From assembly GCF_009177095.1 (NCBI RefSeq), contig NZ_AP021861.1, forward strand, positions 4,818,501-4,882,500: a stretch of DNA of 64,000 bases, read 5' to 3'. Below the pieces are notes generated by a model. It searched no databases and had not been told where the DNA came from. It worked only from the letters and a program-made list of their open reading frames with translations. The stretch is from Lacipirellula parvula (GTDB lineage: Bacteria > Planctomycetota > Planctomycetia > Pirellulales > Lacipirellulaceae). Both the position numbers and the translations under genes were made by a program. Positions 50,948 through 53,479 of this stretch are shown piece by piece. Within the stretch, counting starts at the first letter, position 1. Each line of letters opens with the position of its first letter.

Positions 50948-51796
50948 CTACGCAGCCCGGCGGCGTTCATCCGGCGTCGCGACGCGCGGCGCGTCAACAG
51001 CCCTTTTGCGCCGACGGAAGCGATTCCCGAGATCGAGCAATCCGGGAGCAAACCGCTTCACCCAGTAGGTGAGCCGCGCGTAGGGCTGCATCACCACGAC
51101 CGCCTGATTGCGATAGATGGCTCGCACGGCGCGGTTGGCGATTGCCTCAGGAGTCGCCAACAACCACGCGGGCGGTCGTTTGTTCTCTCGCAGATCCTCG
51201 CCTCGCGGCGCCGCAGCGAAAAGGTTCGTGTCGACCAACCCGGGGCAGAGCGCTGTGACGCCGACGCCTTGCCGCCCGAACTCCGCGCGAAGTGATTCGC
51301 TCAAGCCCACTATCGCAAACTTGCTCGTCGAGTATGCAGCGACGCGGCTTAGGCCCACGAGACCGCAAATGCTTGCCACGTTGAGAATGTGCGACTCTTG
51401 CCGCGACAGCAGCGTCGGCAACAGTTCGCGAATGAACTGCACGGGAGCGTGCAGGTTGATCGCCAGGAGCTGATCCCAATGCTCGGCCGACATTTTGGTC
51501 GTGCGGCCGTAATAGGTGATGCCGGCGTTGTTCACCAGCAGGTCGACGCCGCCCCACTGGTCGAGCAAGTGTGCAATGGCCGCACTCACCTGCGCGGGCT
51601 GCCCGACGTCGCAATGGCGACCGATTACCTCGACGCGACGCTGCTTCACTTCCGCGACAACGCTGGCCAACGCGACGGCGTTGACGTCGAGCAGGTAGAG
51701 GTTCGCCCCTTCCTCGGCAAGCCGCAGCGCGATCGCGCGGCCGATGCCCGAGGCAGCGCCAGTGACGAGTGCAGATTTTCCGCGAATCTGGCGCAT
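50948..51796 (-). CDS. Short-chain dehydrogenase/reductase
   Basis: The 282-aa protein has the classical SDR landmarks: VTGAASGIG (NAD(P) loop), NNAG, a catalytic Ser in the following strand, and YSTSK. CPGLVDTN is the usual late motif. A basic C-terminus (RFRRRKRAVD) may contact membranes. The substrate is unknown. It lies downstream of the PhyH-like gene on the same strand, but a terminator hairpin separates them. The frame is open to 51877 from a TTG; ATG 51796 begins exactly before the nucleotide fold. Confidence 0.92.
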   Translation of the reverse strand: MRQIRGKSALVTGAASGIGRAIALRLAEEGANLYLLDVNAVALASVVAEVKQRRVEVIGRHCDVGQPAQVSAAIAHLLDQWGGVDLLVNNAGITYYGRTTKMSAEHWDQLLAINLHAPVQFIRELLPTLLSRQESHILNVASICGLVGLSRVAAYSTSKFAIVGLSESLRAEFGRQGVGVTALCPGLVDTNLFAAAPRGEDLRENKRPPAWLLATPEAIANRAVRAIYRNQAVVVMQPYARLTYWVKRFAPGLLDLGNRFRRRKRAVDAPRVATPDERRRAA

Positions 51797-51875
51797 GCTA
51801 GCGAAGGCCCCCCGGCCCAAAGCTCCCACATCGAGTAGATCGTCGGCTATCTCTATTTCGGCATTCTGAACCAAC

Positions 51876-51909
51876 AAAAACAGCCCCGACCATAGCTTGG
51901 TCGGGGCTG
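51876..51909 (-). terminator. Intrinsic terminator after the PhyH-like gene
   Basis: A perfect 12-bp stem (CAGCCCCGACCA and complement) with a 5-nt loop is followed on the minus strand by TTTTT. It lies 54 bp after the stop of the PhyH-like gene. Confidence 0.85.
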
Positions 51910-51962
51910 TTTCGTTTCCGTTATCCCCGCCCTCGAAGGGACTCGAAGGGAGGAGACATGCA

Positions 51963-53066
51963 CTAGGCGGCCTTACGCAGCGGCAAGCCTTGCGAATCGT
52001 ACGACGGATCCGCCAGCTTCCGCGTGCGGCTCAGCATGTAGCGATCCTCGCCGCGGAGCGAGACGACGCCCCAGTTGTCGAGGTGGTACTTGCCGCCGTT
52101 GTACACGCTGCGGTACTTCTTCACGCCGGGGTACACCGCGAGGTTGGTCGGAACGGCACGCAGGTTGAACGCCAACCGGTGACGGTCGGTCGTGTTCGCT
52201 TGCGAGCCATGGATGCAGCGTTCCATGAAAATAATGAACTGGCCCGACTTGCAAGGGACGCGAACGACCTTGCTCGGGTCGCGATCGTATTCAAGGGAGT
52301 AGGCGGCGTTGTAAAAGCCTTCTTCGCCGCCGAACTTAACCGTGTGAACCTGCTTGTGCGAACCTTTCACGAAGTCCAAGCAACCGTTCTCGTGGGTCGC
52401 GTCGTCGACGGCGATCCAAACCGTCAGCTGGAAGATTTCATCGCGGTTGGCCGGATGAAGGGCCGGAACCTGATAGTCTTCCACCATAAAAGTGCTAGCT
52501 TGGTGGAACTGAATCGCCGGGGCCTTCGGCGGCTTATGGAACATCTGCGTCCGCCACACGTTGAGGTCCGGACCAAGAATCTGGGCCAAACGCTCGGTGA
52601 TCGCCGGGTGCTTCATGTAGCCCCACAGGCGGGGATTTTCGAAGTGACGGTCGCGCGGCGTAACGAAGCCGTAGGTTTGCGACACCGACTTCTCCGCGTC
52701 GAGCATGTCTTTGCGGAAGTCGGCCATTTCTTCCGGGGCGAACGCGTCGAGCGGACCAATGAAGCCATCTTCGTAGAACTTACGCAGTTGCTTCTCGGTG
52801 AGGCGCCACTTGGGGTCGACGACGACCTTCGGTTCGCAATTGGCCGGCACTTTGAATTCGCACGGCTGATCGATATAAGCGCGGGTCAGGCCCGAGCTGA
52901 TGAGAACCCAGTAAACCTTGAAGTCCCAGTTCTTAATGATATTGCGAATGTCGCGGGGCAGGAAAAACGTCGGCAGCCGCGTCGCCTTATACGCCATCAA
53001 CAAGGTGAGAATCGGGAGCGCGATTGCCCGTTGCCAAAGCGGCCGGACCTTCGGATGGAGATTCAT
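51963..53066 (-). CDS. Phytanoyl-CoA-dioxygenase-like iron enzyme with an HxA motif (halogenase-like)
   Basis: The 367-aa protein has the PhyH fold pattern, with LTVWIAVDDATHENGCLDFV and a second iron His in ERCIHGS (His286). Arg297 and Arg303 are candidates for 2-oxoglutarate binding. The first iron motif reads FHQASTF, so His188-x-Ala190 replaces the usual HxD. In SyrB2-type halogenases the same change (from memory WHQADTF) opens the iron for chloride. It may therefore be a chlorinating enzyme, or an inactive relative. A hydrophobic stretch (10-35) suggests membrane association. AAGGA precedes the ATG. Confidence 0.75.
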   Translation of the reverse strand: MNLHPKVRPLWQRAIALPILTLLMAYKATRLPTFFLPRDIRNIIKNWDFKVYWVLISSGLTRAYIDQPCEFKVPANCEPKVVVDPKWRLTEKQLRKFYEDGFIGPLDAFAPEEMADFRKDMLDAEKSVSQTYGFVTPRDRHFENPRLWGYMKHPAITERLAQILGPDLNVWRTQMFHKPPKAPAIQFHQASTFMVEDYQVPALHPANRDEIFQLTVWIAVDDATHENGCLDFVKGSHKQVHTVKFGGEEGFYNAAYSLEYDRDPSKVVRVPCKSGQFIIFMERCIHGSQANTTDRHRLAFNLRAVPTNLAVYPGVKKYRSVYNGGKYHLDNWGVVSLRGEDRYMLSRTRKLADPSYDSQGLPLRKAA

Positions 53067-53479
53067 GGACTTCGCTTCCTTGCGAAAAGTGGGGGGAGAA
53101 AAGACGCCTGCCCATCGCCAGCGATGCTATCACGCGACCTGGCCGCCTAGGCAAAATTTTCTACATGAATCAACTATCGGAGGATCGGTTGCTTCCGATT
53201 CAATGATTTCCCCCGCAGTCAGCCTGATGACGCAAAACTGTATGCGGCGGGTGCAAAAAAGCATCTCGATTTGCAATCTGCCGGCGTAAAGCAGCTCGTA
53301 GGCTCAAGCTCCGGCAGCGCTGCTATCAATATTGCCCGTGGAAATCCACGCCGAAGCGCTTCTCGGCAATGCTGGCGCCTTCCACACAGACCTGCCCCGA
53401 AGCGCGTAGTCATTGATTTCCGCCCAAATCACCAAAAAGCTATCCGCTTGGCGCCAGTCTTGTTACAATCGGCCCCGGA
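53067..53479. other. Intergenic region without gene
   Basis: This divergent gap of 413 bp contains a TTACAAT -10-like box at 53463-53469 upstream of the vWA gene. No repeat or gene was recognised. Confidence 0.5.

Follow-up and report, generated by a model that had tools for sequence, protein, structure and literature searches.

A conserved two-histidine PhyH-family protein of Lacipirellulaceae is a candidate stand-alone Fe(II)/2-oxoglutarate halogenase

The window, a 64,000-nucleotide stretch of Lacipirellula parvula DNA, carries on its minus strand an open reading frame that starts with ATG and runs from 53066 to 51963 (51963..53066), encoding a protein of 367 amino acids. PhyH (PF05721) was the one confident Pfam domain in the translation (102.5 bits against a cut-off of 22), and assignment to this family of Fe/2-oxoglutarate (2OG) enzymes agrees with the modeled fold. 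A plus-strand open reading frame lying over the gene (51897-53150) was taken as a shadow frame. A script run on the translation located FHQAS at residue 187 and returned His188, Ala190, His286, Arg297 and Arg303 at the positions claimed in the original prediction. The codons of His188-Gln189-Ala190 (52497..52505, minus strand) specify HxA in place of HxD; by alignment, His286 (52209..52211, minus strand) is the second metal His, and the Arg297-Arg303 segment (52158..52178, minus strand) supplies two Arg that each align with a conserved Arg of SyrB2. Four residues before His286, at what is henceforth referred to as the minus-4 position, the gene encodes Glu282 (52221..52223, minus strand), an acid of ambiguous role that is probably second sphere.

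The protein also contains an N-terminal extension that had not been described in the original prediction. This part comprises residues 1-85 (52812..53066, minus strand), includes a hydrophobic helix at residues 10-29 and falls outside the region covered by SyrB2 and CytC3. The fold matches listed mostly span residues 83-362. Hydropathy of the extension was moderate, with a median best 19-residue mean of 1.2 across 30 sequences. The enzyme is probably membrane-near, but this hydropathy is too moderate to claim a membrane span.

Immediately downstream on the same strand lies a short-chain dehydrogenase gene (50948..51877, minus strand), with a likely start ATG at 51796. Directly 3' of the enzyme gene, between it and the dehydrogenase, a scan and a reading of the sequence revealed a hairpin of 16 pairs followed by a T-rich tail (51877..51913, minus strand), which may be an intrinsic terminator. 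The terminator scan gave 2 hits, corresponding to both strands of the hairpin repeat, with 3.4 expected in shuffles, a count that is not unusual; the promoter scan gave 0 sites with 0.7 expected. Because the hairpin and its T-rich tail separate the two genes, co-transcription of enzyme and dehydrogenase in the window appears doubtful. None of the genome's 6 PP-binding matches lies in the 64-kb window, and no adenylation (AMP-binding) domain was detected in the eight large open reading frames scanned between 45.6 and 59.5 kb. The earlier statement that no obvious biosynthetic cluster surrounds the gene therefore holds for the window. An unlinked carrier protein is possible, as six PP-binding matches exist elsewhere in the genome.

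Of 43 genomes from the window's family, taken to be Lacipirellulaceae, 35 carry the gene as a single copy; with only good assemblies counted, the figure is 26 of 28. Orthologue carriers include Lacipirellula limnantheis (L002) as well as Botrimarina and Aeoliella (L004, L005, L007), two genera placed in Lacipirellulaceae by the title of PMC7717034. The 23 genomes from the same order but outside the family gave matches at approximately 30% identity or none. Outside the family, a draw of 392 genomes from the phylum returned strong matches in three genomes of a single genus, g42, and weaker ones in one genome of g54, a genus inferred to be Alienimonas. All six g42 genomes examined carry the gene. 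In the tree, the three g42 rows included branch from within the Lacipirellulaceae rows (support 97/91, with those rows at 100/99). This nesting was read as a transfer between families, in which the gene apparently moved from Lacipirellulaceae into g42 (L092-L094, L126-L128). A distant version is present in two g54 genomes. One scan of viral_contigs returned no viral relative. Among the matches listed in literature searches on planctomycete halogenases, Lacipirellula and planctomycete or halogenase PhyH proteins, no title or abstract start describes the enzyme, and none reports a chlorinated product from a Lacipirellulaceae strain.

The neighboring short-chain dehydrogenase named in the original prediction was borne out and is conserved beside the enzyme. 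In all 22 Lacipirellulaceae-type loci examined, of which the window is one, it lay next to the enzyme gene on its downstream side and in the same orientation; the synteny sample numbered 27 loci and left out L004, L005, L009 and other orthologue loci. The remaining five loci (three g42, one g54 and one remote) gave no dehydrogenase match. In the three g42 loci read, the enzyme stands among unrelated genes, and a dehydrogenase search at 1e-45 found no match in the three g42 genomes and one g54 genome tested. An obligatory partnership with the dehydrogenase was thus ruled out for g42, where three loci and three genomes are without it.

Ala190 is strictly conserved. None of His188, Ala190, Glu282, His286, Arg297 and Arg303 varied in an alignment of 30 sequences, made up of the window protein and 29 orthologues of 55-97% identity; many further residues around the metal site were likewise invariant. 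Over the whole clade, Ala190 and Glu282 were present in 43/43 aligned rows, equivalent to 42 distinct proteins with the window's included, since L016 and L103 represent two trimmings of a single gene. The residues were read in 33 of the 35 family carriers (the window's among them, G448 and G453 not), in L006 (a Pirellulales MAG), in 6 g42 proteins and in 2 g54 proteins. Across all 84 aligned rows, the equivalent of Arg297 was found in 84 and that of Arg303 in 83. Comparison of the window gene with three close relatives gave dN/dS values of 0.032, 0.047 and 0.111. Among close relatives, codon 190 shows silent variation only (GCT, GCC, GCA). Other PhyH stretches retrieved from five genomes at 1e-5 were HxD in 18 of 18 cases, of which the window's own genome contributed 3. 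The invariance in 42 proteins ruled out sequencing error or chance as the source of Ala190. Close homologues retaining HxD, which the original prediction had named as evidence against it, did not appear: 42 of 42 were HxA. Together, the invariance of Ala190, the low dN/dS and the silent codon changes indicate that the substitution is old and fixed in the clade, in a gene under purifying selection.

A comparison with SyrB2-type halogenases had been proposed, and SyrB2 (6.6e-32) and CytC3 (2.4e-27) were indeed the best solved relatives by sequence, followed by ThoJ (9e-14). The SyrB2 alignment pairs HQAsTF with HQADTF, IHGS with MHAS, and two Arg with two Arg, so that HxA, the second His and the 2OG Arg of the SyrB2-type halogenase motif are all present in the translation. 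Such a motif should be read with caution, as HxA/HxG searches are described in PMC12871659 as prone to false positives. An AlphaFold2 model built with 30 sequences (pLDDT 82.9, pTM 0.85) gave the best structural alignments, among the matches listed, to SyrB2 (Z 28.4 over 263 residues) and CytC3 (24.8), followed by ThoJ (Z 23.3) and the proline hydroxylase H11 (21.9). The enzyme thus has in common with SyrB2 and CytC3 the PhyH fold, HQA followed by TF, the second His and two Arg, and with SyrB2 a C-terminal GG-x(3)-L-x(2)-W/Y-G stretch. It differs from them in identity (27-32% in the fold alignment), in the extra 85-residue N-terminal part and in bearing Glu where they have Ser at minus 4. The TIGR01762 profile, named in the original prediction as a check, scored 159.1 bits, under its 226.3 cut-off, although it was still the best NCBIfam model of the enzyme (1.4e-46). 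Two g54 relatives also scored under the cut-off (134.7 and 139.7 bits), and none of the 392 genomes in the phylum draw contained a match above it.

Ten alignment columns were common to the enzyme and the SyrB2/HxV-type rows to the exclusion of HxD rows, while a single column ran the opposite way. A tree was built on 41 of the 84 aligned rows. One half of this tree (97/97) contained the planctomycete HxA, SyrB2-type, HxV and Vibrio HxE rows, and the other half contained all 13 HxD rows used together with HxG and HxH rows; several branches in it are long. One clade for carboxylate loss, uniting the planctomycete HxA rows with the SyrB2/HxV rows, gave an AU p of 0.56, and joining the f1 and g42 rows with the SyrB2/HxV rows gave 0.50. 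The planctomycete HxA rows as one group had support of 61/0. A single origin of ligand loss shared with the SyrB2/HxV-type rows is thus neither rejected nor shown.

Some of the relatives come from plasmids. HxV PhyH proteins near the SyrB2-type chlorinases were found in Nostoc, Streptomyces, Burkholderia stagnalis and Nonomuraea (L070, L071, L133, L075); one of them, L071, is annotated as a "chlorinating enzyme". Val113 of the halogenase HctB is a published parallel to their HxV. A Vibrio europaeus plasmid (L073) encodes an HxE relative with Glu at minus 4; its gene lies downstream of one for a non-ribosomal peptide synthetase, with a TauD-like dioxygenase gene next to it.

Glu282 bears directly on the chemistry to be expected. 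The original prediction had named another acidic residue taking the ligand place as evidence against it. An acid does stand invariantly at minus 4 to His286, and the present data are compatible with a place for it either on or off the metal. In the 84 rows, this position was Ser in 6/6 SyrB2-type HxA rows and Ala in 3/4 HxV rows; an acid, Asp or Glu, occupied it in 23/28 HxD rows (Glu specifically in 9/28), the HxD rows being the best matches of relative searches and not a random sample. Given these frequencies, the pocket appears from the alignment to keep a hydroxylase-like feature at minus 4. The nine HxD proteins with Glu (L044, L045, L047, L048, L050, L056, L068, L069, L136) resemble the enzyme in the PhyH domain, the minus-4 Glu and the surround of the second His. 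They differ in keeping the Asp ligand and in being without the long loop after HxD, and in 8 of the 9, those scanned, the aligned part begins past the N-terminal extension. The Vibrio HxE protein likewise carries its minus-4 Glu together with a normal acid.

The enzyme therefore departs from the non-acidic residue (Ser) that SyrB2 and CytC3 have at minus 4, but this trait is not universal among halogenases, as HctB has Glu. HctB, the hectochlorin fatty-acyl halogenase, acts as described in PMC6218459 on a hexanoyl chain bound to a carrier protein and uses His111, Val113, Glu223 (equivalent to His227 minus 4), His227 and Arg245. The same source describes Glu223 as unique to HctB among reported non-haem iron halogenases; its calculations propose that Glu223 favours chlorination, and its model places the residue in the second sphere. 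By these published residues, HctB and the enzyme both have a non-carboxylate at the HxD place, Glu at minus 4 and an Arg after the second His. HctB differs in having Val in place of Ala and in its three-domain structure. An acid in this register also occurs in the human aspartate/asparagine beta-hydroxylase AspH, which according to PMC13168262 has His679 and His725 only and does not halogenate. There, Asp721 (equivalent to His725 minus 4) hydrogen-bonds the iron-bound water W1 in the free site, and the D721A variant is substantially less active. AspH and the enzyme are alike, by published residues, in having two His, no carboxylate ligand and an acid at minus 4, and differ in that AspH substrates are protein domains. 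By analogy with these two enzymes, an acid in the minus-4 register is compatible with both chemistries, chlorination (HctB) and hydroxylation (AspH). Replacement of the Asp of prolyl 4-hydroxylase with Ala or Gly is described in PMC2767507 as yielding no halogenase.

The distant version of the enzyme provided a possible link to a chlorinated lipid. Both g54 genomes encode an HxA/Glu enzyme; if g54 is Alienimonas, G417 would be A. californiensis-type and G498 most likely A. chondri. Over residues 10-341, a stretch that takes in the N-terminal extension, the G417 enzyme and the window protein share 37% identity; in this one g54 protein compared, the extension aligns from residue 8-10. In both genomes the HxA gene is directly followed, on its own strand, by a gene for a weakly PapA5/WS-DGAT-like protein of 486-531 amino acids (L095 11046-12503, plus strand; L147 8416-10008, minus strand), in frames chosen by codon-position GC. 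Scores against PapA_C were 27.5 and 18.1 bits, under the cut-off of 30, and for the one protein tested the PapA5 and wax-ester synthase matches were far under cut-off. It had no solved relative at 0.01 and no match in the window's genome at 1e-5; 32-34% matches were found in 2 of 6 Lacipirellulaceae genomes tested. PapA5-type enzymes form esters from acyl thioesters.

Alienimonas chondri makes alichondrichlorin, described in PMC12078418 as an ester between 4-hydroxybenzoate and a chlorinated fatty acid; its genes are given there as "currently unknown". The title of its primary paper calls the compound chlorohydrin-containing. The association of the HxA enzyme with alichondrichlorin is suggestive and not proof. 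An epoxide is an alternative route to a chlorohydrin. Partial Trp_halogenase (PF04820) matches of at most 52 bits (Pfam cut-off 21) were observed in all five genomes tested, Alienimonas included, with one of approximately 42 bits in each g54 genome; the same search matched 2 of 14 control genomes. Other halogenase candidates may therefore exist in these genomes. Planctomycetes probably have further chlorination routes, given that Rhodopirellula baltica is reported to hold a chlorinated fatty acid and that the 23 same-order genomes, among which R. baltica was not identified, gave only matches at approximately 30% or none.

Taken together, sequence and model comparisons lead us to regard the enzyme as a new stand-alone two-His PhyH subfamily. 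The reading that we favor for its chemistry, a stand-alone and probably membrane-near Fe(II)/2OG halogenase of an aliphatic chain, has in our estimate an even chance of being correct. The original prediction of a chlorinating enzyme is borne out in part: the SyrB2-like two-His site and the kinship hold, but the protein does not reach the TIGR01762 cut-off. In such a halogenase, His188 and His286 would bind iron, Arg297 would bind 2OG, and Ala190 would free the usual Asp place for chloride. Reaction with O2 and 2OG would then generate a chloro-ferryl species that abstracts a substrate hydrogen, and the resulting carbon radical would take chlorine. Glu282 and Arg303 may sit in the second sphere beside the chloride, like Glu223 and Arg245 of HctB in published calculations (PMC6218459).

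Several observations favor the halogenase: SyrB2 and CytC3 are nearest by both sequence and fold, the shared columns stand at 10 to 1, Ala190 is invariant, HctB has the same register, an acyltransferase-like gene lies beside the g54 enzymes, and alichondrichlorin is made by A. chondri. It is weakened by the sub-cut-off TIGR01762 score, by Glu and not Ser at minus 4, and by the AspH and prolyl 4-hydroxylase precedents. The absence of a carrier match in the window, the weakness of the acyltransferase matches, the partial Trp_halogenase matches and the epoxide route also count against it, as does the present tree, which does not establish the planctomycete HxA and SyrB2-type rows as one clade excluding the Vibrio HxE protein.

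An AspH-like hydroxylase, in which two His and a water occupy the iron, Glu282 holds the water, chloride is excluded and the substrate is hydroxylated, is a serious contender to which we assign a lower probability. The enzyme has the features of that site that were compared (two His, no carboxylate, an acid at minus 4), with Glu282 invariant and in the same register as Asp721, and an acid at this position is usual in the HxD relatives. The dehydrogenase adjacent in all 22 Lacipirellulaceae-type loci could oxidise the resulting alcohol. This argument is tempered by the three g42 loci and genomes that are without the dehydrogenase and by the hairpin that parts the two genes in the window. The enzyme is nearest to chlorinases in sequence and fold, and AspH is presumably from a different branch of the superfamily; its absence from the 50 fold matches listed and the 21 sequence matches does not bear on kinship. 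HctB, moreover, halogenates despite Glu in the same register (PMC6218459).

Relocation of the ligand, with Glu282 reaching the iron in place of Asp to restore a normal 2-His-1-carboxylate oxygenase, was judged improbable. Glu282 accompanies Ala190 in every clade row, and its side chain has one carbon more than that of the AspH Asp beside the iron-bound water. The nine HxD rows and the HxE Vibrio protein, however, carry Glu plus a normal acid, so that its presence does not go hand in hand with ligand loss, and Glu223 is second sphere in the HctB model (PMC6218459). Least probable of all is a relative that is inactive or no longer an oxygenase, its catalysis gone with the Asp and binding its remaining role. 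Pseudoenzymes are often marked by a missing metal ligand, but both His, both Arg and many residues around the metal site are invariant here and dN/dS is 0.03-0.11.

If the enzyme is a halogenase, its substrate would by analogy be a lipid or fatty-acyl compound, most likely a fatty-acyl thioester or lipid, as suggested by the N-terminal hydrophobic helix, by comparison with HctB and by the neighboring acyltransferase-like and dehydrogenase genes; chlorination of a lipid by this clade is plausible. Known Fe/2OG halogenases of the PhyH fold occur in sporadic natural-product clusters and mostly act on carrier-bound substrates. Consistent with that rule, a carrier-protein gene was found in 5 of 5 plasmid loci annotated "chlorinating enzyme", in which respect SyrB2/CytC3-type systems differ from the window with no carrier-protein match. 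A more elaborate proposal, which we offer only tentatively, is an as yet undescribed clade of carrier-independent lipid or fatty-acyl chlorinases, pairing a body like that of SyrB2 with the Glu of HctB and an N-terminal part directed to the membrane. This clade would be near-core and single-copy in Lacipirellulaceae, its Alienimonas members would chlorinate the alichondrichlorin fatty acid, and the PapA5-like neighbor would join the 4-hydroxybenzoate. The clade also offers candidates for the genes behind this chlorinated planctomycete lipid, which PMC12078418 gives as unknown.

A halogenase of this kind would make chlorination a regular part of the physiology of a bacterial family, carried out by a stand-alone two-His enzyme kept in most members. 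A hydroxylase would stand next to AspH as another natural lineage of two-His hydroxylases with a water ligand. In either case, the pairing of Ala190 with Glu282 makes the choice between Cl and OH directly testable with one protein and a handful of point variants.

Other replacements of HxD were observed among the more distant PhyH proteins. In genome G207, a PhyH domain with HxG and a minus-4 Glu lies near the C-terminal end of a 911-934 amino acid open frame (L049/L097, 7874-10606, plus strand) that has no Pfam match besides PhyH. A Halorussus plasmid (L077) encodes an archaeal PhyH protein in which HxH replaces HxD, giving a possible three-His site.
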